Assembly: GCA_039961735.1 (NCBI GenBank)
Contig: JABRVX010000051.1
Span: 1-38,251, forward strand
Direction: 5' to 3'
Source: Fimbriimonadia bacterium
Lineage (GTDB): Bacteria; Armatimonadota; Fimbriimonadia; Fimbriimonadales; JABRVX01
DNA length: 38,251 nucleotides
The first letter of the stretch is position 1, and the number at the start of each line of letters is the position of its first letter. Below, one piece after another: positions 2,206 to 19,772 of the stretch. The notes beneath the pieces were generated by a model. That model was not told where the DNA came from. It did no database searches and saw nothing but the letters and a program-made list of their open reading frames with translations. The position numbers and the translations under genes were made by a program.

Positions 2206-4119
2206 GTGAGTGGACATATGTGGAAACGGCGGATAGGCGGCGCCTCGCTCGTCGAGGTGCTGGTGGTCATCGTGATCCTGGTCGTCGGGATCTTCAGTAT
2301 CGTGCGCTTGTTTCCGGGCGGCTTCCTCGTTCTCGAACGCGGCAAAGAGCAGGCGATGGCCGCGCAACTCAACAAGCAGATGCTGGAGCGCCTGAAGGGG
2401 CGGCTGGAGAACCTGCCCGAGGGCATCTACCCCGTGAAGTACACATTGGTCGGCGGGAGATTGGTGCTAGAGGTAGACCCCGAAACGCGACCGGACGACC
2501 TAGGGTACTGGGAGACCGACGACCCGGATTTGATGGGGCAGATCGACCCCCATTACACCAGCGACGTCAACCGGATCCGGCGAATCATCGGCGAAAGTCT
2601 GCGCATTCCGGCGCCGAAGCCGATCGGTTCGGACCTGACGGACCCCCGGTACATCGGCGGTCTGTACCAAGTGCAGTTCGCTCCGATCCTGTACGACCCG
2701 AGGGTGTTTGTTGTCTACAGTACGCCGCTGCAGCGCCGGTGGGTCAGTCGAAGCAGTCACACCGATCCCGTTGCCATCGGTCGCGTGCGCCGCATGGTTC
2801 AGGAGTACTACCTGGACCCGAACTTGGGCGCGATCTGGCTGCCGGTCTCGCCGACACAGAACATCACCTATAAGGTGGACGTATCGGTGTGGGTAGAAGC
2901 CAATGGGCGGTTCGAACGACACGACTACATTGATATTCCGCTGACTACCGATCCCAGCATGCTGGTCAGTGCGGACGGTTTCTTCCCTCCACCGCCAGCC
3001 CTGAACGCTATCACGGGCTTTGACTTGAAACCTCTCATCGTCCAGGCTGGCGAGCAGTTCCATTCCATCATATGGAACTCGGTTCGGGTCGCTCGAACCT
3101 TTACCGAGATCCCGGTCGACTCAGACTGGAATCCAGACGATCCGTATCAGTACAAGATGCTGAACTACTCGCTCGGACTAGTGCTCTTCAACCCGGCGGG
3201 ATACGAGTTCCGTGAGCTACGCAATCGCCAGATGGTGCCACTGCAGGCTACCTTCAACTACGACGTGCTGGATTGGCACATCATCGTAGACGAGCGGCGT
3301 GTCGGCGACAAAACCCCCCACAACATCAAACTGACGTTGGACCGTATCAAGCGCATCGGGGACCTGAACAACGACAATACACGATTCCAGGGAATCAACC
3401 TCCAGTTCGACGGCCGCGATCACGATCTGCTCATCGTGGATGTCGCTGACGGTTCGGTGATCGTGAACCGTCCTAATCGGCAGTCTTTCGACTTCGACGC
3501 CCTCAAGGGTATCGTGCGGCTCACTGACGAAGTGCTGGTATTGCGGCCCGATAACACGGAAGAGCTGCGCTCGCCCGCCGGTCGCACCTATCGCTTCTTG
3601 TATATGGGTCACGACGATTGGGGCGTGCAGGTCCAAAAGGCCCCTGCCACCTACAACGTCGTCTACGGGCTGCCGGCATCGAGAAATCTCGGCATTCGTC
3701 AGGCGTATGTGCCGAGCGACCGGCCCGGAACTCGCATCTACTTCCCCCAGTGCGACCTCGGCAAGCGAGTCGTGATTCAGGAGTACCGTTACATTGCCCG
3801 AAACGGTAGTAAGCAAGTCGGACGCAGCGAAGACTTCGTCATCCTCGCGCCACGCCCGGGTGACGCCATACAACTGCCGTACATCGACATCGCGGACGAC
3901 TCGCACCATCCGGATGCCGACCGCTTCGACTTTGAAAGCACCGGTAGCCCGGTGGATGCCATAACCGGAGTGTCGCTGAAGGTGCGCGTGGTGTGGGCGC
4001 CCACCCAACGGGAACGCTCGGCAGAGGCACGCGCCAACTCCTACCCGAGCCTGCGGTTCCTCCCCATGTGGCGCAAGATAGATTTCGATACCCATCTTAC
4101 GAGGGAAGTGGCGGACTGA
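2206..4119 (+). CDS. Oversized PilV-like minor pilin (637 aa)
   Basis: A 12-residue leader ends in RRIGG and is followed by ASLVEVLVVIVILVVGIFSI, a type IV prepilin N-terminus with Glu5. The Val-rich hydrophobic helix that starts ASLVEV is typical of PilV/GspI-type minor pilins. The remaining 600 residues are a very large soluble region with no domain I recognise; minor pilins are normally 150-250 residues. The region has beta-rich, Tyr/Asp/Pro-containing segments and repeated short phrases about values and positions such as LIVDVADGSVIVN, suggesting several beta-sandwich modules. It ends in a TGA sharing its A with the next gene's ATG, so the two are translationally coupled. The role, as a minor pilin near the pilus tip, is inferred from N-terminus and gene order. 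Confidence 0.82.
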   Translation: MSGHMWKRRIGGASLVEVLVVIVILVVGIFSIVRLFPGGFLVLERGKEQAMAAQLNKQMLERLKGRLENLPEGIYPVKYTLVGGRLVLEVDPETRPDDLGYWETDDPDLMGQIDPHYTSDVNRIRRIIGESLRIPAPKPIGSDLTDPRYIGGLYQVQFAPILYDPRVFVVYSTPLQRRWVSRSSHTDPVAIGRVRRMVQEYYLDPNLGAIWLPVSPTQNITYKVDVSVWVEANGRFERHDYIDIPLTTDPSMLVSADGFFPPPPALNAITGFDLKPLIVQAGEQFHSIIWNSVRVARTFTEIPVDSDWNPDDPYQYKMLNYSLGLVLFNPAGYEFRELRNRQMVPLQATFNYDVLDWHIIVDERRVGDKTPHNIKLTLDRIKRIGDLNNDNTRFQGINLQFDGRDHDLLIVDVADGSVIVNRPNRQSFDFDALKGIVRLTDEVLVLRPDNTEELRSPAGRTYRFLYMGHDDWGVQVQKAPATYNVVYGLPASRNLGIRQAYVPSDRPGTRIYFPQCDLGKRVVIQEYRYIARNGSKQVGRSEDFVILAPRPGDAIQLPYIDIADDSHHPDADRFDFESTGSPVDAITGVSLKVRVVWAPTQRERSAEARANSYPSLRFLPMWRKIDFDTHLTREVAD

Positions 4120-6074
4120 TGATAGGTACTCGCAGTCACCGCTTGGCCCGAACCGGCTTCACGATGGTGGAGATCCTGGTGGTGCTCGCCATCACGTCGG
4201 TGCTGATGTTGCTCGTGTTCGGGCCGATGATCCAATCGTTCAACACGACGCGCTCCGCACAGGCGGAATCGGAAGCGCAGGACCTGGCACGACGCCTGAT
4301 CGAGCAGATATCTACCGATCTGGCGAATGCTACCTATGTGCGCGACAACAGCGCCCCCGAGGCCTCGATCGACATCGTGTTACCTAACTCGTTGTTCGCC
4401 ACGAACCGACCAGAAGGCCAGCGGATCCTGCGTCTGCCTTATGCGAAGATTGACTTCTTCCCCCCTGCTCAGGGTGATCCGAACAACCCGGAGTACAACC
4501 CCTACATAGACAAGACCGACCCGACGCTGAGAAACCGTGCCCCCATCGGCAAGTTGGCCCTGCCGCTGGCGCGAGGGGTGTCCATGGTTCGCTACTTCGT
4601 CGGGCTGGCCGATCCGTTCTCCGAGTATCGTAACTCCAGCGAGGATCGCTTCGCCGTTGCGGGTAGGGCAGACAATACCTTCGTATTGTATCGTGCCGAG
4701 ATCGTGCCGAGACTGAGCGATGGTAGTGTCAATACGGACTTTTTCGAAGTGGGCCCCGACGGGCAACCCCTACTCGATGACCCGTTGTTCTTTACGGTGC
4801 TTCAGAACGATTCCAACGAGAAGCGAAACCGGGTTGCCAACTGGCTGCGAGCATCACAGGTTATCACGCCGCTGGATCGCGTGGACCTGATCCAGATCGT
4901 ACGTGACCAGAAGTCGCAGGAGCCAGTGTTCGACGATTCCGGTCGGCCGCAGGTGCTGCCGCTGCTAACCATGCAGCCCTCGAAGGTGGACGACGAGCCT
5001 GCATCGCCGCACAACACTACCAGCTTGGGGGAGGAGTTTCCGGAGAAAATCCCATCCGGCTTCCGCACCAAGAGTGGTGGCTGGACGGAGACCTATCGTA
5101 TCACCGTTTGGCGCGATGCGCCGACGGGCTCTCAAGACGTGTACTGGACCGAAGACGAGATGCGCAATGGGCGTTGGGTCAAAACCGTGTGGCATCGGTA
5201 TCCTACGGGCGGGTCGGGTACTGCTCAGGAGCGCGTGTTCGACTTGACCGAGTACATGGATGGCTTGCAGCGTGGCAATCCGAGATTGGACTGGGCAATC
5301 CAGCCTGGCATAACATCGGACCCGATGGCGTTCGTGGTCGACCCGGTTTCCGGCAAGATCGTGACCAACCTGCCGAGAGAGCATTTCAACCCTGATGCAA
5401 CCGAATGGCTGCCAAGCACCGGCCCTGCGCTAACGTATCTGCAGGACACGAACCCCGATCCGACGACCATCAACGGCGCTTTCAACTACCAGTATCGCAA
5501 GTACCCGCAGTGGGGACGAAGGATCGAGCGGTTCGTGCGCATTCGAGACGATGCCACCTCGGTGGTCCGCGGCGATCCCAACTCGCCGCTGTCCCTGTGG
5601 TCGAGCGCATCCATCGCGCCAGGGTCGGAGAAGGTGTTCGGTCCCGATCAGAGGCCGGGGCCTAATTACGGGAACACCGTGCTCTATCGCCGCGTGCCGA
5701 CACTGGATGCCGAGCCCGGGCCGAACGAGTATAGGATCAACTACACCGACCTGCCGTACGATCCCGCAGCGCTCGCCGGCATCGGTTTCAACGTTAACGA
5801 TCCGGACGTGAAGGCGTTCATCCTACCACGGTTCGAGGCCGGCTACATCAAGTTCTATTCGGACCCGAACTATCCGATGCCCGGTGGAAGCCGTAACATT
5901 CGCATCACCTACCACTTCCAGCTCAATCGGCCAGGCGACGTGTTCACTGTGGATTACGCGACGAAGGAAGTGGTTTTGGTGTCGCTGGCCATCCGGCGCT
6001 ACGATGCGTCCAGAGGTCGCCCTCACATGGTGAGCCTGACTAACCGCGTGAACGTGCGCAACTTCCTTAAGTAG
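4119..6074 (+). CDS. Oversized PilW-like minor pilin (651 aa)
   Basis: The leader MIGTRSHRLARTG is followed by FTMVEILVVLAITSVLMLLV, a canonical type IV prepilin start with Gly at -1 and Glu5; this N-terminal form resembles PilW/GspJ. After the membrane helix comes an amphipathic stretch (STRSAQAESEAQDLARRLIEQ begins near residue 45) typical of the alpha1-C helix. About 580 residues of beta-rich extracellular sequence follow with no recognised domain. The ATG overlaps the stop of the preceding gene by one base and GAGGGAAG at 4101-4108 can serve as ribosome site. It is far larger than known PilW proteins (about 250-350 residues). The assignment to the minor-pilin tip set is by N-terminus and order, not by the large domain. 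Confidence 0.82.
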   Translation: MIGTRSHRLARTGFTMVEILVVLAITSVLMLLVFGPMIQSFNTTRSAQAESEAQDLARRLIEQISTDLANATYVRDNSAPEASIDIVLPNSLFATNRPEGQRILRLPYAKIDFFPPAQGDPNNPEYNPYIDKTDPTLRNRAPIGKLALPLARGVSMVRYFVGLADPFSEYRNSSEDRFAVAGRADNTFVLYRAEIVPRLSDGSVNTDFFEVGPDGQPLLDDPLFFTVLQNDSNEKRNRVANWLRASQVITPLDRVDLIQIVRDQKSQEPVFDDSGRPQVLPLLTMQPSKVDDEPASPHNTTSLGEEFPEKIPSGFRTKSGGWTETYRITVWRDAPTGSQDVYWTEDEMRNGRWVKTVWHRYPTGGSGTAQERVFDLTEYMDGLQRGNPRLDWAIQPGITSDPMAFVVDPVSGKIVTNLPREHFNPDATEWLPSTGPALTYLQDTNPDPTTINGAFNYQYRKYPQWGRRIERFVRIRDDATSVVRGDPNSPLSLWSSASIAPGSEKVFGPDQRPGPNYGNTVLYRRVPTLDAEPGPNEYRINYTDLPYDPAALAGIGFNVNDPDVKAFILPRFEAGYIKFYSDPNYPMPGGSRNIRITYHFQLNRPGDVFTVDYATKEVVLVSLAIRRYDASRGRPHMVSLTNRVNVRNFLK

Positions 6075-6098
6075 GAGCCGCGAGGAGTGAGTCCGATC

Positions 6099-8819
6099 AT
6101 GACAGCCAATGGAATGAGAACCGATCGAGGACAGACGCTGATCATCGCGCTGTTCGTGGTGTTCGTTATGCTGTTCCTCGGACTCGTGTTCGTGGGCATC
6201 ATCGGGCGAAACCTGTTCTATGCCCAACGCAACACGCAGTCCATCTCCGCCGAGAACTTCGCGGAGAGCGGTATCCGCTATGCACACATGATGCTCCGAA
6301 CCAGCCCCGAGGGGGCGGATTGGCGTCCCGTCCCCGCAAACCTGCCGCCGACCCAGCAGGACGATCCGGACTACCTGTGGCTTCGGGCCCCCGATCCCAA
6401 CATTCCGAACGACTTCGGCGGTCCACCCAGAGGCCCCGGCGATCCCGGCGGCGACGGATCCTTCACCCGGCTCAACTTCGACCAGGGACGCGCGCTGATT
6501 CGGTTGACGTACGCCCCCAAGGTGGACGACCCACTATCACGCTATATCAAGATCGAGTCGGTCGGTCGTATCGGCGAGATGAGGCCTAACGACCCCACGA
6601 TGAAGCGCGGCGTCACCGCGAGGACTTTCCGCCTGAAGGTCGCCTATGCGATGATCGGGATCACCGACTACGCTCGATTCATCACCAACCTCGACCGTAA
6701 GCCGCAGCCGGCGGACCTCGGGATCCCTGTCAACTTCGGTGCTATGTTCGGCGCGGGACAAGTGTCGGTGCCCATGTTCCTCGGTGACCCGGTTGCCTAC
6801 TCGCAGTTCGTCGGGGGGTTGCAGACGCGATCCTACGGAGGGCCTCTGCGAGTGAATTCGGGCCTACGCATTTGGGGGGATCTGCGCATCTACCTCAACC
6901 CCGACTTCGGAGACAAGGTGGAAGTAGCGGGTGACATCGAGTTCGCGACGGCGAGCTCGTCGGGACGGTTGCTGCGTCATGATATGCTGGGTCTGATCCT
7001 GATGCAGCGGAGTGCGAGCCCCGTCTTCAACACGTATCAGGGAATGGTTCGAGACGGCCGGCGGCAGTCCGACACACAGAACTATCCGCGCGGCATCGAG
7101 TACCTCGATCCACCTATCATCAATGAAGTGGATGGCGTGGGTCGGGAGCGGTATCTCGCGGCAACCCGTCACACGGGCCTATGGATTCGTGGTGCCGACG
7201 GACGCTACTTCAACACTGGGGACCTCGGATACGGCGAAGGCGTTTACATTGATAACTCGTCGGACCGCCAAGACGATGTCACCTCTTTCGCCGGTGGACG
7301 CAGCCTGCGCAACGAGTGGCTGAAGCCCAACGTAGACAGCCCCTACTGGCAGGGTCCGTACTACGTACCGCCGGGCTGTTATATCCAACTGATACCGGCG
7401 ACGCCGCAGGTCCCGGGCGGATTCCGCATCATACGTAACATCCGCGACGACGGCCAACGCTGGCGCACCCCGCTCAATGAACCGACCCCGCGCCATTCCC
7501 TTCGGTTCTTCATCGAGAAGGATCCGAACAGCCCGACCGGCGCTATCATCTGGAACGAACTGGGTGGACGCGATGCGGCGACAACATTCAATGGTGTTAT
7601 CTATGCAGAGGGCAATGTCCGTGTCCGTGGCATCATCCCCGGGGGACACCAGCTCACGATTGTAAGTGGAGGCACCATCTACATCGAAGGTAGCATCATC
7701 AAGGGGCGGCTCGCCAACGAGGGTGTCGGCGAGGAGTCGTGCGCGCTGGCTCTACTAGCGAAGGACTACGTGTGCCTCAATACCACACAGTTCGTCGGTC
7801 CCGCATTCGATACGCCCCTCAACTTCGAGCCGGACGCTCTGGACGTTATTGCCCCCTATCACGTGACGGTGGAGCAGAACCGACCGTTCAACGCGATCTG
7901 GGAATTCGGCGATGACCCGAACCAATACACAGGAAGCGGGAGGTACCCGCGGTTGTATGTCCGACATGCCGCGCAGTCCGGTGGTGCCGCGTTCATCAAC
8001 CTACTCGTCAACTATGGTTTGAACCCGGCGGGCTCTGAGTACCTGTTCGATAACGCACCGCCTAACTATGCCGGCGTGTTCTACGGAACCCAGCAGAAGA
8101 TCCCTACCTACGGCCTCGCCGACGCCGCGACGCAGGTTTTCCCGAGATATGAGCACCGTTCGTTTGGTCTTGCCCCACCGGCAGACTACGGCGGATACCC
8201 ACTGCTAACGAGCGGTGAGCTGAACACCATGACCTTCCAGAGCGACGCGCGGATCGCATCTCGAGGGGGCAACCGACCGTACTTCCTCAGCCGCCTTGCC
8301 ATCCAACCGATGGATGTTCGCATCGAGGCGCTGATCTATGCCCAGAGCGGCTCGTTCTTCGTCATTCCTGGGCCTTGGTTCAACGCCAACCCGAACGATA
8401 GGCGCGAACTTTACTCCAATGAGTTGGCACGCCTCAACGCGTTCGGCGTCTACGCCGACTTCCCGTTCTATGCCGAGCCGCTGGATATCAAGGTAACAAT
8501 CCGCGGAGCTGTCTCCGAGAACTTCCCACCACCGATTGCTGACCAGACCGAGTGGTTGCAGCGGTGGGGCTGGATTCCGAAAGAGTACGGCGAGTCGGGT
8601 GTTACCATCCCGGACCAGCACGTTCCTGCGGACTTCCAGAACCGAAGTTACGTCCCGAACCTTTATATCGTTTACGATACGACCTTTGCCTCGGCACGTC
8701 CCGCCGGCTTGTTCGCGCGCGATCCCATGCGGGTGGATCGCTACGGCCGAATGCTGCCTGCGGTACCCAGACTGCCCGTAAGCCCGAGGCTTCTGTACTT
8801 TGGTGAGGTGCGTCCATGA
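6099..8819 (+). CDS. PilX-like protein with DUF4900-type middle (906 aa)
   Basis: The N-terminus has RG at 10-11 followed by QTLIIALFVVFVMLFLGLVF and then the AENFAESGIRYA helix, which fits the PilX_N type. Mature position 5 is Ile, not Glu, as in PilX/GspK-like proteins that cap the filament tip. Further on, stretches such as FNGVIYAEGNVRVRG (about 498-512) and GGTIYIEGSI (about 524-533) resemble DUF4900, a family of pilus-locus proteins with parallel-beta character. ATG 6099 is preferred over GTG 6087 because GAGGAG (6082-6087) would overlap the GTG but lies 11 bases before ATG. The TGA overlaps the next ATG by four bases. Family assignment of the N-terminus is firm; the biological role is inferred. 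Confidence 0.82.
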   Translation: MTANGMRTDRGQTLIIALFVVFVMLFLGLVFVGIIGRNLFYAQRNTQSISAENFAESGIRYAHMMLRTSPEGADWRPVPANLPPTQQDDPDYLWLRAPDPNIPNDFGGPPRGPGDPGGDGSFTRLNFDQGRALIRLTYAPKVDDPLSRYIKIESVGRIGEMRPNDPTMKRGVTARTFRLKVAYAMIGITDYARFITNLDRKPQPADLGIPVNFGAMFGAGQVSVPMFLGDPVAYSQFVGGLQTRSYGGPLRVNSGLRIWGDLRIYLNPDFGDKVEVAGDIEFATASSSGRLLRHDMLGLILMQRSASPVFNTYQGMVRDGRRQSDTQNYPRGIEYLDPPIINEVDGVGRERYLAATRHTGLWIRGADGRYFNTGDLGYGEGVYIDNSSDRQDDVTSFAGGRSLRNEWLKPNVDSPYWQGPYYVPPGCYIQLIPATPQVPGGFRIIRNIRDDGQRWRTPLNEPTPRHSLRFFIEKDPNSPTGAIIWNELGGRDAATTFNGVIYAEGNVRVRGIIPGGHQLTIVSGGTIYIEGSIIKGRLANEGVGEESCALALLAKDYVCLNTTQFVGPAFDTPLNFEPDALDVIAPYHVTVEQNRPFNAIWEFGDDPNQYTGSGRYPRLYVRHAAQSGGAAFINLLVNYGLNPAGSEYLFDNAPPNYAGVFYGTQQKIPTYGLADAATQVFPRYEHRSFGLAPPADYGGYPLLTSGELNTMTFQSDARIASRGGNRPYFLSRLAIQPMDVRIEALIYAQSGSFFVIPGPWFNANPNDRRELYSNELARLNAFGVYADFPFYAEPLDIKVTIRGAVSENFPPPIADQTEWLQRWGWIPKEYGESGVTIPDQHVPADFQNRSYVPNLYIVYDTTFASARPAGLFARDPMRVDRYGRMLPAVPRLPVSPRLLYFGEVRP

Positions 8820-11800
8820 CGCGAACGCTACTAGCCGTCCTCGGGGTGTTGTTGGCTGCGTTGCCTGCTATATCGCAGCCAGCGGTGTACGGTGAAGCGA
8901 GAAACGCCATTCGCGCTGGTATCTTGCTGGTGCCGTCTACCGGCAGCACCTCGTCACCCGGCGGCACGAACGCAGACCCGTACGTCTTCTACAACCTGAT
9001 GATGAGACAGGACTTGCTGCCGGGCGGGTGGGACTTCTACAACCCATATGCTCCATCTGTCGTGACGCAGAGGGTGTATGATCGCTGGCGAGCCATCATG
9101 GGACGGGCGCCCTTCGCCGTCGGTGACCGCGTTCAGAGAAGCATGGCGCCCTATTGGGAGGTGTATCTCGACGACCTCTCGGACAAGCAGCTGTCCAACT
9201 ATGACATCCTACTGATCCACGCGCCGGGAACGTTGCGTTTCTCGCCGGATCAGAGAGAACGCCTGCGCAGGTTCGTGGACTCGGGAGGCGTGCTGTGGTT
9301 CGACAAGGCGACGAGCCAAACCGTTGACGGCAACTCCGGCTTCCCGCTGACGTTCGGAGTGTCCAGTTCAGGCGGCAACCCGCAGCTGGTCAATCCCACA
9401 CACCCGCTGCTCAACTACCCGCACAAGCTGACTGTGGGGGAGGCCACCTTTCTCGGTTCACACCGCGGTTCCCATGCGATCACGCCGTGGGGGGCTGCAG
9501 GGGAACAGGGCTTCGCGGACTTCAAGCGGATGACGCCCATCGTGCTGAACTCGGCGGGCGGTGTCATTATGCACGCCGATATGGGCTCCGGGCACTTCGT
9601 ACTCACGGCGTGCAACGTGGTCTCGAACATCAATGAGCCAGCCGGTGGCACGACGACTGGGCTGGGCCGTAACAGCGGTCCGTTTGCAGGCACGAACTTT
9701 CTGAACATCCCGACTCCGGAGCTTAAGTTCGCATACAACCTCGTGGGGCTGACTGGTAGTCACCGTCAGTTCGGCAAGGGCTCGCGAAAGCTCAACGCGA
9801 CGTTCGAGGATATCGGTGCGCCTCTACTGGGTAAGTGGAGCACACCCTTTACACCGCAAAGCACTTTCGAGTACCACGGCCGTCTCTACAAGAGCCCCGT
9901 GTTCTTCAAAGGATTGCTCATCGTCTCGACTAACACCGAGGTACTCGCCTTCGACGCACAGCCGATGCGTGACTTGGACGGTGACGGCAATCCGGACGAC
10001 GGCTTCCCGGACCTGAGTCAGGGCACGCAGGCCGACCTGGTATGGCGCTTTCAAGTTCCGGGAGCATCGCTGCTGTCCGCACCGCTCGCAGTGGAAACAC
10101 CCACCGAGGCTTCCCAGGGCTTTCAGCCACCTGTCAATCAGGTATGGGTGATGGACCAGGACGGTGCCGTGTACGTGCTAAACGCCTTCCCCGTGCGAAA
10201 CCGGCGCTTGGCCGATACGCAGCAAACAGGCGATTGGAAGCGCATCGATCCGCCGCGCGATGACATGATTCCCTTCTCGCTGCCCAAGCAGCCGAATGCG
10301 CTCACCTACTCGGACGGCATGATTTTCGCTGCGGCAGGAGCACTGACAATCACCAACCAAGTGCGTGGTGGGATCGCGTGGGTGATATCACCCAAGGTCG
10401 CACGCATCGTCTCGACAGGGTTGGACCCGGATAGCTACTTCGTTGCGCAGGGCGCGAGAGCAGTTCCCGGCACGAACCCCTTCGTTACGGCCCCTACTGT
10501 CGGCTATGTCCCGCAAGCCGAACGCGGCGGGGCATCCGATCAGGTCGTGTATATCGGAACCGAGCGCACTACGACGGGTGGTCGAGGCGGTCCTGGTTTC
10601 GCGGCACTGTGGTTCCGCACACGCGGCGAGAAGCTACGCATGGACGGCTATGCGTTGGAACAAACCAAGTTCAAGTGCCTCGCCGCAAACCAGAACCTGA
10701 AAGTCTTCTTCACGACCCCGGGCGAGTTCGAGGAGTTGAACCCGCGGTTCTACGGCTACAGGCAGTCGGATGGGGCACCTGTCGTGTTGCCCGATCCGAT
10801 CGTGGGAGCCGTGCCCGGCGAGTTCATCTTCCAGGGCGACTGGCGAAACGTGGACATCTACGCCGACTACACCATAGACTGGTCGGCGCGTGACTTGCAG
10901 TCGGGCAACCTGAACAAGATCGCCCGTACGGTCATGGTGATGCCGGACGAGTCCACACCGAAGCAGGAGATCATCGGTTCGCTCACCCTGGCACCCAATG
11001 GCAACCTCTTCCTCGTGTCCAGCAATGTGGATGTCACGTCCGATCCGAAGTCGGGTGGTGGATCGCTGTTTTGCTTCCAGGAGAGGCTGAACAACACCAG
11101 ACTGCTGTATCGGTGGCAGTTGCATCACGGCTACAACCATATTCTCGGAGGCACTAACAAAGTCACCGTTCCGCCCGTGATCGTGGATAACGACCCGCTG
11201 ACCAAGATTCCGCCGCTGAACAATTTCTTGGACCGGCCAATGACGAAGATGCACTTCCACGGTAGCCCGGTCATCCATAACAATATGTGCTACGTGGTGG
11301 CGTCTGCGCGAAAGAACCTGGGCTTCTTCGAGTTGCCTGTCACCATTCTGCTGGCCTTCGACGCCGACCCGCAGCCAGCCGAGATTCGCGTCGGCGGACC
11401 CATCCTCGGAACGGAAGGCGACATCGAAGTCTCACAACCCGATCCGGCGGTGAGCCTCAGCAAGGATGAACCTACCGGTTTCAACCGACTGAGCAACCGG
11501 CAAGGACAGGGCGAGATCGAAGTAGATGCCGCCGCGGGCATCATCCGAATCAGCAACTTCTCGACCAGCCCGAGGGGAGAGGTGCGAAACAGCATCAGCC
11601 TGAGCCAGCCGGTGGCCGTGCGTGTTCCCGGTCAGCAGCCGTTCTTCGTGGATCCGAACGCCACCGGCAACCGCTGGTCGCCGCTCCGGTGGTTCATGAC
11701 CTTCAACGGGTTCACGAACGAAGCACCCGCGATGGTCACTGGAAACACCCTGTATCTCGCCGGTGGCTGGAGCCTCGAGAGCTTCATCTGCCCGCCGATG

Positions 11801-13390
11801 CGAATCCCTCCGGCCTATCGTGCAATGGTGATCGCGATGGACGCGGACATCCCTACCAACGACGAGTTCCTGATCAACGACCCTCTGGTGCCCACCAACA
11901 CGCACAGCAACCGGCAGCTCGCCTACTTGCTCATTCTCCCGAACGGCCGGCCACGCTTCAATACCCACATCCGGTGGCCCTCCAACGAGGGGCTGACCAG
12001 CATGGAAGACTTCTGCATCCGAGTGCGTCAGTCGCGCCTCGGCAATAGCCAGAGGGCGCTCGGTGTGATAGGAGGCGACGGGCTGCTCGCCGCGTGGGCA
12101 CCCGACGGCACATTCATCTTCGAAAGAGCCCTCACGCTGGTGACCGATCAAGGCCGCCTCATCGAAATTGACAACCAGGGCTTCGTCAATTGGACTTCCG
12201 AAAACACCTATGCCGGAGCGGTCAATCAGGGGAACCTGTTCCTGAAGATCGTGCAGCTCACGAATCCGACCAAAGCGTACAAGCTGGGCTGGAACGAATA
12301 CCTCGTGGCCGATACGGGAGCCAACCGTATCGTGCGAGTGGACCGTGCGGGCGCCGAGGTGCGCACCATCGAGGGCTTCACGTTCGACCAGCAGATGCTC
12401 GCGGCGGGGAAGCTGTATGGCTTCACTCCGGGAGACCCGCTGAACCTGAGGCAGCCGCGTGACGTGAAAACCTGGACCGACTTCGTGCCAAGCGATGTGA
12501 ACCCGTTCTCGGTGAAGTCCGATCTCGAGTTCTGGATACATTACCTGATAGCAGATACAGGTAACGGTCGTCTGGTCGAGGTGGTCGACCGGTATGTCGC
12601 TGACCCGAACACACTCGCGGTGGGAGCTCCCGTCTCTGCGGAATCGATAGGGCAAATCGTCTATCACAGCCCGTTGAATGCAATCGGCCGCAAGTATCGT
12701 TACCACGCAGTGGATAGGACCCAGACCGGCGTGGACGCGTCGGGGCTTGCCACCTTCGCTTACGTGGCGGCAGTGGGAAACTGGGAGGCGACCGGTGCAG
12801 CCGTCGGCACCGACCCGTTCGGCAGCGACACACAGCTCCAGGCGTACAGCGGTGCCGGCGCGATCATCGTAGAGTACTTCGACCAGACGCTGGACCAGAA
12901 GGACAGAGTGATCGTTATCCATCGGGTGCGCATGCCCGATGGCACGCTGAGACCCTTCGTTAACCCATCGTCCGTACACGCGACCCCGCTACGGTGGGAC
13001 TCGACAACCGGACGCATCGTATTCTCGATCCTTATCGCGGACAATCAGGGAGTGATCGAGATCGCTCCGAACGCCTCGAACCCCAGGGAGTGGGACGTCA
13101 TCTGGAACATGAGCAACGAGAACTACTTCACTCTCCGAGGTGTGTCGTTGCTCGCCAGCGGCGCTCGGAAGCTGGCAAACGGGAACATTCTCATCACCAA
13201 CGCATATACCGGTCAGAAGCCGAATTTCACGGACTTCACGGGTGAGGTGGTGGAGATCCGCTACAGCGATTACAACCCCGGCCAGCCCAACAATGGCTTC
13301 AGCATGGCGGCAGGCTCCGTGAGGGCGGAGATCCCGCCGCTGGTCGGCGCACGGCAACTGAAAACTCCGCTGTTCGCGGACAGGCCGTAG
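8816..13390 (+). CDS. Giant secreted beta-propeller protein in PilY1 position (1524 aa)
   Basis: A signal peptide (residues 1-20) leads into a region (about 125-270) with a glutamine-amidotransferase-like Rossmann fold look: YDILLIHAPGTLRFS, then RLRRFVDSGGVLWFDKA. From about 335 to the end come repeated beta-propeller-like blades, including VWVMDQDGAVYVLNAF and LLIVSTNTEVLAFDA. An EF-hand-like calcium loop is present at D386, D388, D390, N392, D394 (DLDGDGNPDDG). It starts in the stop of the PilX-like gene (ATGA), so it is translationally coupled to the minor pilins. PilY1 of Pseudomonas also has a C-terminal propeller with an EF-hand-like calcium site and the same gene position, but its von Willebrand A domain is not seen here. 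It is best called a PilY1 analogue; true homology is untested. Confidence 0.75.
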   Translation: MTRTLLAVLGVLLAALPAISQPAVYGEARNAIRAGILLVPSTGSTSSPGGTNADPYVFYNLMMRQDLLPGGWDFYNPYAPSVVTQRVYDRWRAIMGRAPFAVGDRVQRSMAPYWEVYLDDLSDKQLSNYDILLIHAPGTLRFSPDQRERLRRFVDSGGVLWFDKATSQTVDGNSGFPLTFGVSSSGGNPQLVNPTHPLLNYPHKLTVGEATFLGSHRGSHAITPWGAAGEQGFADFKRMTPIVLNSAGGVIMHADMGSGHFVLTACNVVSNINEPAGGTTTGLGRNSGPFAGTNFLNIPTPELKFAYNLVGLTGSHRQFGKGSRKLNATFEDIGAPLLGKWSTPFTPQSTFEYHGRLYKSPVFFKGLLIVSTNTEVLAFDAQPMRDLDGDGNPDDGFPDLSQGTQADLVWRFQVPGASLLSAPLAVETPTEASQGFQPPVNQVWVMDQDGAVYVLNAFPVRNRRLADTQQTGDWKRIDPPRDDMIPFSLPKQPNALTYSDGMIFAAAGALTITNQVRGGIAWVISPKVARIVSTGLDPDSYFVAQGARAVPGTNPFVTAPTVGYVPQAERGGASDQVVYIGTERTTTGGRGGPGFAALWFRTRGEKLRMDGYALEQTKFKCLAANQNLKVFFTTPGEFEELNPRFYGYRQSDGAPVVLPDPIVGAVPGEFIFQGDWRNVDIYADYTIDWSARDLQSGNLNKIARTVMVMPDESTPKQEIIGSLTLAPNGNLFLVSSNVDVTSDPKSGGGSLFCFQERLNNTRLLYRWQLHHGYNHILGGTNKVTVPPVIVDNDPLTKIPPLNNFLDRPMTKMHFHGSPVIHNNMCYVVASARKNLGFFELPVTILLAFDADPQPAEIRVGGPILGTEGDIEVSQPDPAVSLSKDEPTGFNRLSNRQGQGEIEVDAAAGIIRISNFSTSPRGEVRNSISLSQPVAVRVPGQQPFFVDPNATGNRWSPLRWFMTFNGFTNEAPAMVTGNTLYLAGGWSLESFICPPMRIPPAYRAMVIAMDADIPTNDEFLINDPLVPTNTHSNRQLAYLLILPNGRPRFNTHIRWPSNEGLTSMEDFCIRVRQSRLGNSQRALGVIGGDGLLAAWAPDGTFIFERALTLVTDQGRLIEIDNQGFVNWTSENTYAGAVNQGNLFLKIVQLTNPTKAYKLGWNEYLVADTGANRIVRVDRAGAEVRTIEGFTFDQQMLAAGKLYGFTPGDPLNLRQPRDVKTWTDFVPSDVNPFSVKSDLEFWIHYLIADTGNGRLVEVVDRYVADPNTLAVGAPVSAESIGQIVYHSPLNAIGRKYRYHAVDRTQTGVDASGLATFAYVAAVGNWEATGAAVGTDPFGSDTQLQAYSGAGAIIVEYFDQTLDQKDRVIVIHRVRMPDGTLRPFVNPSSVHATPLRWDSTTGRIVFSILIADNQGVIEIAPNASNPREWDVIWNMSNENYFTLRGVSLLASGARKLANGNILITNAYTGQKPNFTDFTGEVVEIRYSDYNPGQPNNGFSMAAGSVRAEIPPLVGARQLKTPLFADRP

Positions 13391-13472
13391 CGACCCGGGA
13401 GTGCGAAACGGAACATGAGACGCTTTGCTCGCGTCAAGCAGAAAAGTGGACTTGAGTTTAGGTGATTGGCTG

Positions 13473-16400
13473 ATGAAGCATACTCGATGGCTAATCGGCA
13501 TGGCCATGTGCGCCTTTCTAGTCGGTGCCGGCGTCGCTCAAAACGACTGGCCGGTACATCGCGGCAACCAGCAACGCACGGGTCTGAACGATAAGGCCGA
13601 CGGACCAAACCTGACACAGCTCACCTGGTGGTGGCCGCTGAGAAAGTACGAGCTGCCCACCGTGGCGGTGGACAACGACAACTCCGATGTACCGCCTCTC
13701 GTCTCGCGCACCGGCACCTGGGTCGTGCCGGACCCCGAGAACCAAGCGATCGGTTTTGTGGGAGAGGACTACGAGTACGCCGGATGTGTCGCGGCACGCT
13801 CTGTCGACGACCCGACCGACGGCGCGGACCGTACCTTCCGCTGGACGCTACGCCCCCTCGCCACTCAAGTCGCACACTATGCGCTGTACGTCCAGTTTCC
13901 CTCGAGCGGCACCACGCTGCCGGGCAATACCCGGGTTACTCCTAATGCCCTCGAGGCCGTGTATAAGGTGGAATGGACGCAAGACGGCGTGTCTCGCTCA
14001 CGGGTGTACAGGGTCTCTCAGACCGTAGGAGGCTACAAGATTCGGATCGGTGGCGCGGCGGTCTTCCCGGCGTCCAGCACATCGCCCGTCTACCTAACGC
14101 TGTACAACACCGTTCCCGTGGAGGACAACGGCTTCGGCGAGATCGTGCCTATCGAGAACCCCGACAACGCCATCGTCGTGGCGGATGCTGCCTACCTGGC
14201 CAATCCACCTGCTAGCGCTCAGTCCTCACCCGTGGTGGTCCACCGGGGCGGCATCCCACACATCTACATCACCCGCAACATAGGCAGTGTCGATCCGAGC
14301 GACCCGAGCGGCGTAGACGCGCAGACTCAGGGCGAGCTAGTTTGCATCGTACCGCCCACCCCCACCGTGCCGGAGGCGGTGGCGAAGTGGGTGTGGAGCC
14401 CATCGCAGCAGTCCAACGTGAACAACGTGGTGGATGACACTTCGAGCGGATTCAAGAAGGATTCCGCGTGGGTGCAGGCCACCGAGACCGCAGGCGATTT
14501 CTACGGTGAGACCAGCTACGAAACGACCGTCACCACTAGCGCGAACCAATCGGAGTGGAACAACGCACGTTGGGAGCCGAAGCTGAGCGCATCGGACAAC
14601 TTCGATATCTATGTGTGGTTCCCGTCCTCGGGGGAGACACACCTCAACACACGCAACGCCCGGTACATCGTTCACTACTTCGATCCGGACGACGGGTTGA
14701 CCGAAGACGTAATAGACAACGTCAACCAGGAAGAGGGGGGAAAATGGGTTCGGATCGGTAGCCGCTCCTATCCGAACGACCCCGAGCGCGGGCAGCTGTG
14801 GCTCGAGATCGTGAACTACTCACCCGACACGGGTGATGCCGGACGGTACGTGCAGGCCGACGCGGCGATGTTCGTCGGAGGCTACCAAGGTAGTATGGTC
14901 ACTACTCCGACGACGGCAAACGTCCGCGTCAAGATGCGGGATGGCAGTACACAGAACCGAGACGTCGTCTTCGTAGCAGATCAAGCCGGTTACATCTACA
15001 TGGTGGATGCCATCGGCGATCGAGGGCACACGTGGGCCTACTGGTCCTATCCCTCCACCCCTAACACCAACGATCCGAATTGGGAAGATCCTAACAAGGA
15101 CGCCGACAACGGCGCGCCGACGATAGGTGGGTTCCTTCGTACTACGGCGACGGTGGCGCGCGTGGGCAACAAGGATATCCTTTTCATCGGCAGCACGAAC
15201 GGACGCATGTATGCCATAGACTGCGAGGGCCGAGGCGATTACGACGAGCGGACCGCCACCACAGGCACCACGAAGCGCATCTGGACCTATCCCGATGCCG
15301 TGCCGGACGTGGACAAGAGCAAAGAGAAGAACTACGCTTCGGTCGTAGTAGGCTCACCCGCCTATAAGGATGGCGTTGTGTACTTCGGCACCACCGAAGG
15401 ACGCATTTACGCGTTGGATGCAGCGGGTGAGGGCAACGGTACTACGAGGGAGAAGTGGATCTACCCGGGCCGCGCCCTCGACGGGCAGACCGAAGAGGAC
15501 CCGATCGGGGCCATCGTCGGTACGGTGTCCGTAATCACGACGGGGGACGGCGCCAACCTGGTCGTCTTCGGAACCGCACCGTACCAGTTGGCTCCCGGCG
15601 ATCGCTACAGTGGTAGGGTGATTGCACTCGATGCCGATGGCTCGTCCAACCGGCGCACTACACGGCGTTGGGTGTATCCGCCGCTGGGTGATACCACGCA
15701 GGTCGGCAATTTCTCGTATGGCGGCCCCTGCTATGTACCGGATATCCAGGTGTATCAGAGCGTCTCTGCACGATACGACGTGGTGTATATAGGGGCCGAA
15801 GACGGGCGCGTCTACTACATCAACGCGCGCAATGGCGAGTTGCTGTACCGCAGCGAAAGGGGGCTCGGTGGCGCGATCCGTTCCGCACCGACATTCGCGC
15901 AGGTGGTGCCACACGAGCAGCTTCCTCCCTCGCGTGACAGCATTATTATCTCGACTGCGGCCGGTGACCTGATCGCGCTCAATGCACGCGAGTACGGCAC
16001 TCTCAGCCCAGACCGACTGGGTGAAGCCCACTGGGCCGGTCAACTGACTGAGCAGGCCGAGTTCTTCGGCTCCGTAGCGATCGCCAACGGGTTCATGTAT
16101 GCGCTCGCATCGAACGGCCGCCTGTACGCGTTCAGCGATCAGGCCGCACCGTCCGACTATGACGAGGGCTGGGAGCCGTTCCAGGAGACCGAACCGCCGG
16201 ACCAGAGCGACGATATTGACCTGAAGGATACTATCGTAAAGCGAATCAGCCGAGAGAGCTACAACCAGCTGCGAGCGCTTACACCCGGTAGCACCTCACC
16301 TACACCCTATGACCTGAACGTCGTCAACGAGACGATACTCGAGTGGGGCTCGACGATCTACCTGGTCGCCTACAACTTCTACATCGAGAACGAGGGTGGA

Positions 16401-19400
16401 ACTGTCACCTTCCAGCTCAAAGGACCTAGTAACACGCCGCGTGTCAGCGCGCCCGTGAAGCGCTACGCCGAGAACAACCCGGCACGCAAGCCATGCTTTG
16501 CAGTGTATGCCTACGTTGTCCAGGGCTCGAGGCAGGCCCCGTTCACACCGGGTGAGGAGTACTGGGTGGAGGCGACCGTACGCCCGCCTTCTGGGACAGC
16601 CGTCGGCCCATTCGAAATGGAGCCCAAGCCCCTACTGATCGCCAACCCGCTCGCTGTGCGGGTGCTGAACCCGAAGGGCGGAGCGGCCAACTCTGAGATC
16701 GGCTGGACCGTCAACAGCACGGACAACTACGTGAAAATCAACGGCAGTGGCGGCAAGGAGAACACCGTCATCGCCAATCAGGGCGAGATCAATCACGGCA
16801 TGCGCGGCTCCACCCTCATCGAGGTCGCCGATAGGAGCCTGCTGCTCTACTCCACCGGGCGCTCTCTACGACAGGTGATGGGAACACGACTGGACCTGCA
16901 GTTCCGTGGTGGCGCGGCGGCCATGTACAAACCGCTGCCGTGGGACATTCCGCCGGTCGGCTTCCCGAACCCGAGCCCCGACTATCCGGACATAGACCGC
17001 CGACAACTCGGCCTCTGGTCCGACCCCCTCGGCACGCGGAACAACCTCGTGAACAACGCGGTCGGCTTGCCCAACCCACTCGGCGACGAGACGGCGCGCT
17101 CGCTCGTCGGCCTCCCAATCGAACTGGAGACCGACGTGCCGATGTATCAGCCCGCGAACATCCGCGACGGGTACCTCGCCAAGGTGTACGTGTGGGTGGA
17201 CGTGGACAGCGACAAGCGGATCTCGGGCGTCAGCACCTCAATCGTGACAGACCTGCCCACCGCGGGCGCCGAGGCTTACCGCTCCCTCAGTACGTCGCTG
17301 AACATTCCGCCGGACGAGAAACTTGCCATTGTGGAGCCCACGATTGACCTCGGACAGCTCGCACACGGTGTTGGATGGACCCCGGAGCCACCGCGAAGCA
17401 ACAACAACAAGTACTTCCATAGCTCCTGGGTCGACCAGACCAGCGGCCCCTACAACGCGTTCTTCAAACCGTTCACGGTGCTCAGCTACAGCAACGTGAA
17501 CATGCTGAACCTGAGGGTCGCCTCGCTGCTGAACCAGTTGCCGGTTTCGGGACCGGTAAGCGACCCGCCGCTGCGTCCGGTCGGGTTCTTCGGCGACGGC
17601 CTGAACCCGCTCGCATGGCTCGGCGCGGATCAGGCGCTCGTCAGCAACTTGGACCCGCGGTTCCAGTCCGCGGTCACCTTGCACAAGCCGCGACCCGGCG
17701 ACCGTAGCCCGACGTCGCTGCGCATCCCGGACGCGCCGTACGGCACCACCGACCCGAACGCGGACCCGCCAATGCTCGGCGTCGCGGTTCCCATTGGCCA
17801 GCCCGTCGGCACCTACACCCAATACATTCGCGTCTTCGAGGACCTGTACAACGGGCGCAACCTCGCACTGGACATCGACCCGGTGACGAACCGCGCCTTC
17901 GAGACTATCTCCGAGCCTGCGCCTCGCGTGAAATTCACCGTACGCGAAAGCCGCTTGACGAGCGACACGGAGCCTGGGTCGCTCTATCAGTTTGACTACC
18001 CGCCCACGAGCACGAACCCGTTCCGGTACGCTAACGTCGCGTCAGCGGCATATCGAGACCGCCGCACGGGCGAGATGGTGGTCGCGTTCTCCTCGCAGCG
18101 CGAGAGTGCTACCGACCTGAACGCTCCAGCGGGAGCAGTCGGCAACTGGTCCATCTACACGGGCCGACTCGGAGTGCAGCAAGCGCAGTTCCACGGGACC
18201 GTGCCGCCGCCGCTCCTCGACCTGTACGCGTGGCGAAACGCTGCCAGCGACAAGTGGTGGCAGTTAGGTGGCGGACCCTACCCGGGAACCAGCCCCGACA
18301 GCCTGTTCACGGAACTGCCAGGTACCATCGTGCCTAACTCCGCACAGTACTTCGAGCCCACATTCCCGGTGAACATCAACGACATGCCCAGGCCCTACCT
18401 GTTCTGGCAGGGCTCGGTGAAGAAGCTGTTCCAGGGCCAGGAGTATACGGAGTACGCGACGTTCTATTCCGAGATATCGCCCTCCACCGGACGCTTGGGC
18501 ACCATCCACAAGGTGACCGGCGACACCGGCGGGAGTGCCATAGACGCTGCCATGCCTCGGTACCGGCCTGTCGTGCTGGGTGGCGGCACCGGTGCGCGCA
18601 TTTTCTGGTACGGCGGGACGACAGGCCGCTACAGCCTGTTCGTAAACGAGACTCCTTCCGTGGATAATCCGAACTCGTGGAGCCGCCCGGTCAGGATAGG
18701 CATCCCATCCAGCCTCGCGTCGGCCAAGGACCCGTACCCGGTTGCAGGCCCTGCGGGCCGCATCGACCTCATCTACAGCGGCGTGATGAAAGACCGCAAC
18801 ACGAACGAGCTGTTCCTGGCCACCTACGGCCCGGAGGGTCCTGGTGGATTTATCAACTGGGAGCGTCCTCGTACCAGGGCCCGCATCAACAGTGAGGTTG
18901 CAGTGTTGGACACTGCACGCGGCAACGTGTGGCGGACACAGGGCATTGACTGGGCCATCGGGGGCCCGGGGTCCGGCCTCGACGTTGCGGTGAACGGTCG
19001 CTCCATTCTGGGTGAAGGTGAGCGGGACAGCTCGAACGAGCGCATCCGATATCGGTCGCTGCTGGGTGGGTACGTGGTGGTCGACCCCGCGGCGGGCACC
19101 ATCACCTTCCCGAGCATCGCGCCCGGGCCGCAGGACATCGTGACGGTGTCGTACACCCCCCGCGTGATGCGCCTAACGCCCAGCAACCTCGGCGGGCACA
19201 CCGAGCCTGTGCAGTTCGTGGACAGCCGGCCCATCGGCAATCTGGCGTACACGTTCCGCAGTACGGGGACAGCCGCACAAGCAAACGACTACGTGCCGGT
19301 GGACCGGCGATGGGTGCTGTACAAGCGTGGAAGCACGGCGCCCGGTCAGCCCATGACCCCCTACTACCAGACGTATCGAGTCGGAGTGAACCTGCCGACT

Positions 19401-19772
19401 CCAGCGGCGGTGGGAACCACGGTGAGCGTTGGAGGGAATACCAGCTTCTACACCGTGGACTACACACGCGGCAAGGTGTACTTCACTCTGGCTGACGCAG
19501 GACGCAGCGTTAACATTGCTTACGTGGCCGCCGGTGGGGGAAGCCATCAGGTCTCTGCCACGGTTGACTGGATCGCCGAGTCTGAGGAGACTACGGTGCC
19601 CATCGAGCGAAGTATCGCCGAGTCGCAGCTTTGCGCCTTCGCCGATCCCAGCACCGAGCGGGGAAGGCCGGACTTCATCTGGCTGTTCTGGTCCAGCACA
19701 CGTAACGGAGCTTCCGACGTGTACTTCCAGACCATCAGCCCACGATTCGACATCGTTCCTGCCGGAAGATAG
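13473..19772 (+). CDS. Giant secreted protein: golvesin-like modules plus PQQ-type propeller (2099 aa)
   Basis: The signal peptide MKHTRWLIGMAMCAFLVGAGVAQ is followed by NDWPVHRGNQQRTG, the typical opening blade of PQQ-like propellers. Two modules at about 70-246 and 321-471 resemble the golvesin/Xly carbohydrate-binding-like domain: beta-sandwich text such as YALYVQFPSSGTT or FDIYVWFPSSGET, a GGxxxRIG strand, and a closing VVADAAYL or QADAAMFVGG. Propeller blades follow at about 480-890 (GRMYAIDCEGRG, GRIYALDAAGEG, GRVYYINARNGE, GRLYAFSDQ). A beta-sandwich region (about 946-1068) and a long C-terminal half of unknown type come next, with an EF-hand-like DVDSDKR at D1243-D1247. ATG 13473 is chosen over upstream TTG 13425 because it begins a proper signal peptide and AGGTGAT (13460-13466) precedes it. 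It is probably a surface adhesin or pilus-tip partner; its ligand is unknown. Confidence 0.75.
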   Translation: MKHTRWLIGMAMCAFLVGAGVAQNDWPVHRGNQQRTGLNDKADGPNLTQLTWWWPLRKYELPTVAVDNDNSDVPPLVSRTGTWVVPDPENQAIGFVGEDYEYAGCVAARSVDDPTDGADRTFRWTLRPLATQVAHYALYVQFPSSGTTLPGNTRVTPNALEAVYKVEWTQDGVSRSRVYRVSQTVGGYKIRIGGAAVFPASSTSPVYLTLYNTVPVEDNGFGEIVPIENPDNAIVVADAAYLANPPASAQSSPVVVHRGGIPHIYITRNIGSVDPSDPSGVDAQTQGELVCIVPPTPTVPEAVAKWVWSPSQQSNVNNVVDDTSSGFKKDSAWVQATETAGDFYGETSYETTVTTSANQSEWNNARWEPKLSASDNFDIYVWFPSSGETHLNTRNARYIVHYFDPDDGLTEDVIDNVNQEEGGKWVRIGSRSYPNDPERGQLWLEIVNYSPDTGDAGRYVQADAAMFVGGYQGSMVTTPTTANVRVKMRDGSTQNRDVVFVADQAGYIYMVDAIGDRGHTWAYWSYPSTPNTNDPNWEDPNKDADNGAPTIGGFLRTTATVARVGNKDILFIGSTNGRMYAIDCEGRGDYDERTATTGTTKRIWTYPDAVPDVDKSKEKNYASVVVGSPAYKDGVVYFGTTEGRIYALDAAGEGNGTTREKWIYPGRALDGQTEEDPIGAIVGTVSVITTGDGANLVVFGTAPYQLAPGDRYSGRVIALDADGSSNRRTTRRWVYPPLGDTTQVGNFSYGGPCYVPDIQVYQSVSARYDVVYIGAEDGRVYYINARNGELLYRSERGLGGAIRSAPTFAQVVPHEQLPPSRDSIIISTAAGDLIALNAREYGTLSPDRLGEAHWAGQLTEQAEFFGSVAIANGFMYALASNGRLYAFSDQAAPSDYDEGWEPFQETEPPDQSDDIDLKDTIVKRISRESYNQLRALTPGSTSPTPYDLNVVNETILEWGSTIYLVAYNFYIENEGGTVTFQLKGPSNTPRVSAPVKRYAENNPARKPCFAVYAYVVQGSRQAPFTPGEEYWVEATVRPPSGTAVGPFEMEPKPLLIANPLAVRVLNPKGGAANSEIGWTVNSTDNYVKINGSGGKENTVIANQGEINHGMRGSTLIEVADRSLLLYSTGRSLRQVMGTRLDLQFRGGAAAMYKPLPWDIPPVGFPNPSPDYPDIDRRQLGLWSDPLGTRNNLVNNAVGLPNPLGDETARSLVGLPIELETDVPMYQPANIRDGYLAKVYVWVDVDSDKRISGVSTSIVTDLPTAGAEAYRSLSTSLNIPPDEKLAIVEPTIDLGQLAHGVGWTPEPPRSNNNKYFHSSWVDQTSGPYNAFFKPFTVLSYSNVNMLNLRVASLLNQLPVSGPVSDPPLRPVGFFGDGLNPLAWLGADQALVSNLDPRFQSAVTLHKPRPGDRSPTSLRIPDAPYGTTDPNADPPMLGVAVPIGQPVGTYTQYIRVFEDLYNGRNLALDIDPVTNRAFETISEPAPRVKFTVRESRLTSDTEPGSLYQFDYPPTSTNPFRYANVASAAYRDRRTGEMVVAFSSQRESATDLNAPAGAVGNWSIYTGRLGVQQAQFHGTVPPPLLDLYAWRNAASDKWWQLGGGPYPGTSPDSLFTELPGTIVPNSAQYFEPTFPVNINDMPRPYLFWQGSVKKLFQGQEYTEYATFYSEISPSTGRLGTIHKVTGDTGGSAIDAAMPRYRPVVLGGGTGARIFWYGGTTGRYSLFVNETPSVDNPNSWSRPVRIGIPSSLASAKDPYPVAGPAGRIDLIYSGVMKDRNTNELFLATYGPEGPGGFINWERPRTRARINSEVAVLDTARGNVWRTQGIDWAIGGPGSGLDVAVNGRSILGEGERDSSNERIRYRSLLGGYVVVDPAAGTITFPSIAPGPQDIVTVSYTPRVMRLTPSNLGGHTEPVQFVDSRPIGNLAYTFRSTGTAAQANDYVPVDRRWVLYKRGSTAPGQPMTPYYQTYRVGVNLPTPAAVGTTVSVGGNTSFYTVDYTRGKVYFTLADAGRSVNIAYVAAGGGSHQVSATVDWIAESEETTVPIERSIAESQLCAFADPSTERGRPDFIWLFWSSTRNGASDVYFQTISPRFDIVPAGR

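Follow-up and report, generated by a model that had tools for sequence, protein, structure and literature searches.

Oversized minor pilins and two giant propeller proteins encoded in a conserved operon of Armatimonadota, a probable type IVa pilus tip complex

The tip complex of a type IV pilus determines what the pilus adheres to and how its growth begins. Knowledge of these complexes comes nearly all from Pseudomonadota, Myxococcota, and a few Gram-positive bacteria. Among the closest described systems are the FimU-PilV-PilW-PilX-PilY1 sets of proteobacteria and myxobacteria; in Myxococcus, the clusters of minor pilin and pilY1 genes are translationally coupled (PMC13190605). A calcium motif of the PilY1 type has been described (PMC8833165), and the loss of Glu5 is the published mark of a tip-capping pilin (PMC10191384). 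Related arrangements include the GspI-GspJ-GspK tip trimer of type II secretion systems (T2SS), ComZ of Thermus thermophilus, the modular pilins, of which the case with the most added domains in a published survey has 860 aa (PMC8179133), and the Verru_Chthon cassette A to D (TIGR02600, TIGR02599, and TIGR02596), a pilin-like cassette with a very large A protein.

The window analyzed here, a stretch of 38,251 nucleotides from a genome of Armatimonadota, order Fimbriimonadales, contains a tight plus-strand operon at positions 1343 to 19772 that encodes a small pilin, PilV-, PilW-, and PilX-like proteins, and two giant proteins, with pilD on one side and pilM-N-O-P-Q on the other (Table 1). The operon shares with the PilY1 systems its gene order, the I-J-K pilin types, the tight packing, and, following pilX, a gene for a large propeller protein that is secreted and carries an EF-hand-like calcium motif; unlike in those systems, the minor pilins are 2 to 4 times larger and two giants are present instead of one. 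The five open reading frames of the earlier note were all confirmed, in order and on the plus strand, and its sizes held within the choice of start codon: the PilV-like protein has 637 aa (GTG 2206) or 633 aa (ATG 2218), the PilX-like protein 906 aa (ATG 6099) or 910 aa (GTG 6087), and giant 2 2,099 aa (ATG 13473) or 2,115 aa (TTG 13425). The small pilin (1343 to 2137) falls just outside the stretch described in that note, which starts at 2206. The PilV/PilW genes overlap by 1 base and the PilX/giant 1 genes by 4 bases, and an overlap was found at the same joints in 35 of 65 and 36 of 76 relatives, respectively. The type IVa pilus genes of the host genome comprise pilD, pilMNOPQ (N, O, and P assigned by position only), pilB, pilC, and pilT. 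A family search with the PilN-position protein gave no significant match. The pilB-pilT-pilC set lies elsewhere in the genome (G000:C52), with PilT scoring above its cut-off and PilB slightly below the equivalog cut-off.

Table 1. Features of the minor pilin operon and flanking pilus genes (window coordinates)
Feature	Position	Strand	Size or basis
PilD-type prepilin peptidase (A24)	79..1152	+	Pfam PF06750 E 7e-28, PF01478 E 2e-14
Small pilin, GspG/GspH-like, FimU slot, Glu5 present	1343..2137	+	264 aa
PilV/GspI-like oversized minor pilin	2206..4119	+	TIGR02523 PilV E 1.6e-5, N-terminus
PilW/GspJ-like oversized minor pilin	4119..6074	+	651 aa, ATG 4119
PilX/GspK-like oversized minor pilin, proposed tip-capping subunit	6099..8819	+	GQTLII N-terminus, no Glu5
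Giant 1, secreted, DUF4159-like N-terminal domain and several beta-propellers	8816..13390	+	1524 aa, ATG 8816
Giant 1 DUF4159 match (residues 120-172)	9173..9331	+	PF13709 E 9e-7
Giant 1 EF-hand-like calcium motif DLDGDGNPD (residues 386-394)	9971..9997	+	motif Dx[DN]xD[GN]xxD
Giant 1 conserved C-terminal tail LxxPxFADR (residues 1514-1524)	13355..13387	+	51-sequence alignment
Giant 2, secreted, Golvesin_C domain and PQQ/BamB-type propeller	13473..19772	+	2099 aa
Giant 2 Golvesin_C domain (residues 319-467)	14427..14873	+	PF25275 E 5e-11
Giant 2 PQQ_2/BamB propeller match (residues 763-894)	15759..16154	+	PF13360 E 6e-8
PilM	19957..21270	+	PF11104 E 9e-42; TIGR01175 above cut-off
PilN-position membrane protein	21281..22276	+	position and syntenic conservation
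PilO-position membrane protein	22280..23074	+	position and syntenic conservation; GspM E 0.02 at best
PilP-position protein	23090..23929	+	position and syntenic conservation
STN-domain protein, Gly-rich tail, split-off secretin N0 domain	23975..24754	+	PF07660 E 2e-6, just under cut-off
PilQ-type secretin	24793..26451	+	PF00263 E 4e-34

The order of small pilin, PilV, PilW, PilX, giant, and giant, which had been proposed from this one operon, is kept in related genomes. The same order with similar sizes was found in 19 further genomes and 80 contigs, the 19 being those in which the flanks were read well enough (some stretches ended at contig or fetch ends), and because order and size recur in this way, chance is excluded. 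Median sizes among the relatives are 654 aa for PilV, 734 for PilW, 1,027 for PilX, and 1,580 for giant 1. Across 291 Armatimonadota genomes, the PilX profile matched 271 and the giant 1 profile 243. A single-sequence query with giant 1 returned no matches from the genome contigs; a PilX alignment query did. Giant 1 was also seen only together with the pilins, with large pilins upstream in all 40 loci with flanks read.

The prepilin character of the N-termini, which the earlier note had read from the sequence, was borne out by type III signals, with Gly or Ala at position −1 followed by a hydrophobic N-terminal helix. The small pilin matched N_methyl (E 9.5e-8) and TIGR01710 (E 1e-10, first 60 residues), and N_methyl was detected in 17 of 18 PilV-like and 18 of 18 PilW-like homologs. 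The PilV-like gene is the longest open frame among the 53 matches to the N-methylation motif in the host genome, and a profile search with the PilW-like protein retrieved the N-termini of solved pilins. Glu5 is absent from the PilX-like protein in all 74 copies and present in 197 of 198 copies of the other three pilins (PilV-like, 66/66; PilW-like, 67/67). This matches GspI-GspJ-GspK, where the I and J types have Glu5 and the K type lacks it; unlike in that trimer, the heads are far larger, giants follow downstream, and the locus holds pilD and pilMNOPQ. The tip role that had been proposed for the PilX-like protein is thus supported by its missing Glu5, a sequence character that marks it as a putative tip pilin.

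The AlphaFold model of PilX (pLDDT 88.4, pTM 0.89) consists of a 57-residue pilin helix (residues 12 to 68) joined to a confidently predicted, all-beta or beta-rich head, with strands at residues 123 to 184 after the helix. Foldseek gave no significant pilin match for the model, and the head had no convincing counterpart among solved structures in the best 50 matches, neither GspK nor ComZ. Although no solved pilin was matched, neither of the refuting outcomes named in the earlier note occurred: the helix leads into a confident beta-rich head, and none of the 40 giant 1 loci with flanks read was without pilins. ComZ is likewise a GspK-like tip pilin made up mostly of a large beta domain, but has 554 aa against 906 for PilX here. 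Modular pilins such as PilB and PilC of Streptococcus sanguinis differ in that PilX reaches 1,113 aa or more (1,113 in the 80-contig set, and longer still in deep lineages) and in that one operon holds three oversized pilins. The best NCBIfam match of the PilW-like protein was Verru_Chthon cassette C (E 3e-7). Membership of PilX in the Verru_Chthon A family was considered and rejected on scores far below the curated cut-offs, as was the case for every match to this cassette; TIGR02600 matched 2 of 51 PilX homologs (best E 0.006) and none of 21 relatives in a search without a positive control.

In the PilY1 slot, the placement of two giants beyond pilX stood, but their identity with PilY1 did not. 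PF05567 was unmatched in 20 giant 1 and 14 giant 2 homologs, and the PilY1 structure 3HX6 was not returned by profile searches with either giant or among the best 50 fold matches of giant 1. The PF05567 profile also matched 0 of 291 genomes in a search without a positive control, so that its absence from the phylum leans also on the homolog, profile-structure, and fold searches. The proteins in this slot are either unrelated to PilY1 or diverged from it to an extreme degree. Giant 1 begins with a DUF4159-like domain, found in 20 of 20 homologs, in contrast to the vWA domain of PilY1. Residues 325 to 1524 were modeled as beta-propellers (pLDDT 86.7), with Foldseek matches to multi-propeller and NHL/EPTP propeller proteins; the top matches, spliceosomal SF3B3 and DDB1, reflect the multi-propeller layout and were rejected as a sign of kinship. 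The EF-hand-like motif Dx[DN]xD[GN]xxD, the counterpart of Dx[DN]xDGxxD in PilY1 and predicted to bind calcium, occurs in 48 of 51 aligned giant 1 homologs. In the tail of the same 51 sequences, P1518 is invariant and A1521 and R1523 are conserved at ≥90%. Profiles of giant 2 matched PQQ/BamB propeller structures.

We consider it probable that the products of this operon form the priming and tip complex of an Armatimonadota type IVa pilus, built on the GspIJK/PilVWX plan, enlarged about threefold, and capped by giants 1 and 2. The PilV-, PilW-, and PilX-like pilins (GspI, GspJ, and GspK types) would come together in the inner membrane and be the subunits from which the fiber starts, with the Glu5-less PilX-like protein at its top; their small N-terminal parts would enter the fiber and their large beta-rich heads would remain at the tip. 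The giants would be exported by Sec and dock on the pilin complex in the manner of PilY1 in other phyla, forming an outermost, calcium-dependent propeller cap that may bind surfaces, polymers, or other cells. From gene content, order, and conservation, the signal types, the Glu5 pattern, the helix-plus-head fold of PilX, and, for giant 1, the calcium motif and propeller fold, we infer physical assembly, docking of the giants, location at the tip, and an adhesive or sensing function, the last having been put forward in the earlier note as perhaps a new adhesive or surface-sensing system. Also counted for this reading were the position of the cassette next to pilD and pilMNOPQ, with synteny throughout Armatimonadota, the stop-start overlap of PilX and giant 1, which has a parallel in the coupled Myxococcus clusters, the pilB-pilT-pilC set, and the fimbriae of Fimbriimonas ginsengisoli. 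A docking-strand role for the C-terminal tails of PilX and giant 1 was weighed and rejected, because most of each tail is ordered in the models of the single proteins; that of giant 1 is confidently folded and thus not obviously free.

It is possible, although unlikely, that the pilin set is a T2SS pseudopilus and that it secretes the giants as cargo or as products anchored at the surface, which would then not be parts of a tip. The I-J-K plan is common to T2SS, the secretin scores roughly alike as PilQ (TIGR02515, E 2e-38) and as GspD, both giants have Sec-type N-termini as judged by eye, and T2SS had been attributed to Armatimonadetes in an earlier survey (PMC6668835). However, in place of a GspL-type PilM/PilN fusion and a T2SS-type operon, the window has a PilM separate from PilN, as in type IVa pili, and the pilMNOPQ order. 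Besides the separate pilB-pilT-pilC set, the genome has another operon that resembles a T2SS and carries GspE/GspF/GspD/PilM-like genes of its own, and giant 1 was never seen away from pilins in the loci with flanks read.

A competence pilus tip, in which the large PilX receives DNA as ComZ does and the giants aid DNA capture or uptake, is similarly improbable. The large inserted beta-solenoid of ComZ, a GspK-like tip pilin, binds DNA (PMC6561018), and single PilX relatives gave weak beta-solenoid matches (FapA and MinC_C), but ComZ was absent from the best 50 Foldseek matches and no DNA-binding family was matched. We know of no competence pilus with propeller giants, which further argues against this role. 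Still less probable is that the giants act as assembly factors in the periplasm or outer membrane, serving like BamB as scaffolds for the secretin or for exporting the large pilins. Giant 2 does have a PQQ/BamB-type propeller, and the giant genes lie directly upstream of pilM-pilQ; however, two deep lineages (G195 and G283) have PilM and PilQ beside their pilins with the giants absent, and the calcium motif and size fit a surface-exposed adhesin better.

Throughout the phylum the I-J-K core is retained with much larger heads, and the proposed cap differs in most members. If the tip complex reading is correct, these bacteria may build a far larger pilus tip than has been studied to date. A bolder form, to which we give somewhat less than an even chance, is a pilus tip of ~6,000 residues in which PilY1 was replaced by two nonhomologous giant propeller proteins, placed in series on an enlarged pilin platform of the GspIJK type, as an independent tip-adhesin solution, with the large pilin heads themselves acting as tip devices in lineages without giants. 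The order has a cultured, fimbriated member in Fimbriimonas; F. ginsengisoli bears fimbriae (PMC4072686).

The oversized minor pilins were confirmed, with the correction that several deep lineages (f6, f17, f18, G195, G281, and G283) carry them without adjacent giants. The giants are therefore not essential to the pilus, and as they are missing from these lineages and from one genus with reduced pilins, all of which keep the pilins, they are an add-on. Lineages with and without giants offer a built-in comparison that can serve as a natural test for telling the fixed components of the priming complex from the replaceable ones. In g30, the reduced genus (G054 and G055), PilV has 262 to 318 aa and PilX 599 to 685 aa. 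A rule that pilins shrink once the giants are lost, suggested by this genus, was rejected, as PilX in the giant-less deep lineages has 884 to 1,329 aa.

The operon containing the cassette lies on the plus strand of the window, with pilD, four pilins and two large secreted propeller proteins (giants 1 and 2) preceding the stretch from pilM to the secretin and then aroK and aroB. The PilV- and PilW-like genes overlap by 1 base and the PilX-like and giant 1 genes by 4 bases. The protein sizes claimed in the earlier note are correct, allowing for start-codon choice. The secretin is apparently divided between two proteins (window 23975-26451), a short one with an STN domain and a glycine-rich tail and a second, the secretin of 552 aa, an arrangement also present in several relatives.

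Features of the pilin operon in the window
Feature	Position	Strand
pilD	79-1152	+
Small pilin, 264 aa	1343-2137	+
PilV-like pilin	2206-4119	+
PilW-like pilin	4119-6074	+
PilX-like pilin	6099-8819	+
Giant 1, 1524 aa	8816-13390	+
Giant 2, 2099 aa	13473-19772	+
pilM, pilN-/pilO-/pilP-position genes, STN-domain protein, PilQ-type secretin	19957-26451	+
aroK, aroB	after secretin gene	+

A search of a named genome collection with the PilX alignment matched 80 contigs, nearly all labeled as Armatimonadota (Fimbriimonadales, Chthonomonas, Abditibacteriota, and others) or as bacteria such as HRbin15/16; two, labeled "Methanoregulaceae archaeon" and "Propionibacteriaceae bacterium," look mislabeled. Median lengths across these contigs were 654 (PilV), 734 (PilW), 1027 (PilX), and 1580 aa (giant 1). 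The window's genome belongs to the order Fimbriimonadales of the Armatimonadota and is the sole member of its family among the genomes compared. Of 61 genomes from this order, 59 had giant 1 and 57 had giant 2. Across the phylum, the PilX profile matched 271/291 genomes (189/194 good ones) and the giant 1 profile 243/291 (174/194 good ones). Gene order was unchanged in relatives read with wide flanks, some of these stretches ending at contig or fetch limits. Large pilins lay upstream of giant 1 in all 20 further loci, which were picked by giant 1 and come mostly from other families; no giant 1 without adjoining large pilins was seen among the giant 1 loci examined.

In N-terminal alignments, Glu5 was found in 64/65 small pilins, 66/66 PilV, 67/67 PilW, and 0/74 PilX sequences. 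According to a review, the subunit lacking Glu5 caps the minor-pilin tip complex (PMC10191384), and the sequence itself thus points to the PilX-like protein as the cap. Its AlphaFold model (pLDDT 88.4, pTM 0.89; 51-sequence alignment) comprises a helix (residues 12 to 68), strands (123 to 184), and a long beta-rich head reaching the C terminus. Foldseek comparison of this model with the PDB returned nothing below E 0.001 and no pilin among the best 50; the weak matches included carbohydrate-binding modules and tailspikes. Single homologs gave weak family matches to FapA/MinC_C, GspK, Verru_Chthon A, and a lectin family. These results make PilX a pilin of the GspK type whose large head is so far unmatched. 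Among 18 homologs each of PilV and PilW, the N-methylation motif was found in 17 and 18, respectively, with no convincing domain beyond it.

The earlier note had placed the giants in the PilY1 slot; that they are PilY1 is not supported. Neither giant matched PilY1 in Pfam or in profile searches against the PDB, and PilY1 was not among the best 50 folds for giant 1, the sole giant folded (residues 325 to 1524, pLDDT 86.7). A search of 291 genomes for PF05567, which had no positive control, gave no match. Giant 1 carries an N-terminal DUF4159-like domain in 20/20 homologs, some of which also gave propeller matches; its fold resembles multipropeller assemblies and single NHL/EPTP propellers (Foldseek), and NHL propellers were also matched by its profile. 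Giant 2 combines a Golvesin_C domain with a PQQ/BamB propeller, and one propeller stretch is common to both giants (96% probability). DLDGDGNPD at giant 1 residues 386 to 394, kept in 48/51 homologs, fits the EF-hand-like calcium-binding motif of PilY1 proteins (PMC8833165). The giants occupy the place of PilY1 yet cannot be classed as PilY1.

Oversized pilins occur without following giants in the deep lineages G061 to G063, G121, G122, G125 (where the contig stops soon after PilX), G195, G281, and G283. Both giants are present in G191, and in G246, G253, and G290 giant 1 is followed by a second long protein. Since several lineages keep the oversized pilins without giants, the core that stays constant is the enlarged GspI/GspJ/GspK-type set (the counterparts of PilV/PilW/PilX); the giants either are often added to it or were lost more than once. 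A second small pilin often lies between PilV and PilW in deep lineages (L184 to L197), which thereby approach the GspG-H-I-J-K layout. The 1.5-Mb genomes G054 and G055 (genus g30) lack the giants and have a reduced pilin-PilV-PilW-PilX cluster with PilB/PilT-type ATPases. Their minor pilins are small (L156 to L159), and flagellar-looking genes were noted by eye in the same stretch (FliD in G054, MotB in G055).

The most likely mode of action follows Myxococcus and Pseudomonas, in which minor pilins prime assembly and finish at the tip with a PilY1-type protein outermost. On the same plan, the fiber would end in PilX as its cap and the two giant propeller proteins, about 6,000 residues in total; the Pseudomonas tip set has about 2,000. 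We infer that the cassette proteins assemble, sit at the pilus tip, and serve in adhesion or sensing. The cassette is less likely to be a type II secretion system (T2SS), given its separate PilM, the pilB-pilT-pilC set found in the genome, and the second, T2SS-like operon that occurs there as well.

Modular pilins and GspK/ComZ-type tips are already known; what is notable in the cassette is its scale, its phylum-wide conservation, and the replacement of PilY1. We found no description of it in searches of an open-access library. The parts consulted of the Fimbriimonas ginsengisoli genome paper list PilB, C, D, Q, M, PilT, and many pseudopilins and do not name a tip complex (PMC4072686).

Elsewhere in the window's own genome (G000), PilB (contig C52, L180:7131-8882) has an N-terminal MshE-type cyclic-di-GMP motif (51.9 bits versus a curated cutoff of 38) and is followed by PilT and PilC; pilus extension may be under cyclic-di-GMP control. 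The second type IV filament operon (G000:C9:207700-215300, L182), with PilM-like, GspD/PilQ-like, GspE/PilB-like, and GspF-like genes plus pilins, is probably a T2SS. The N-methylation motif has 53 matches in this 3.2-Mb genome, spread over many contigs.
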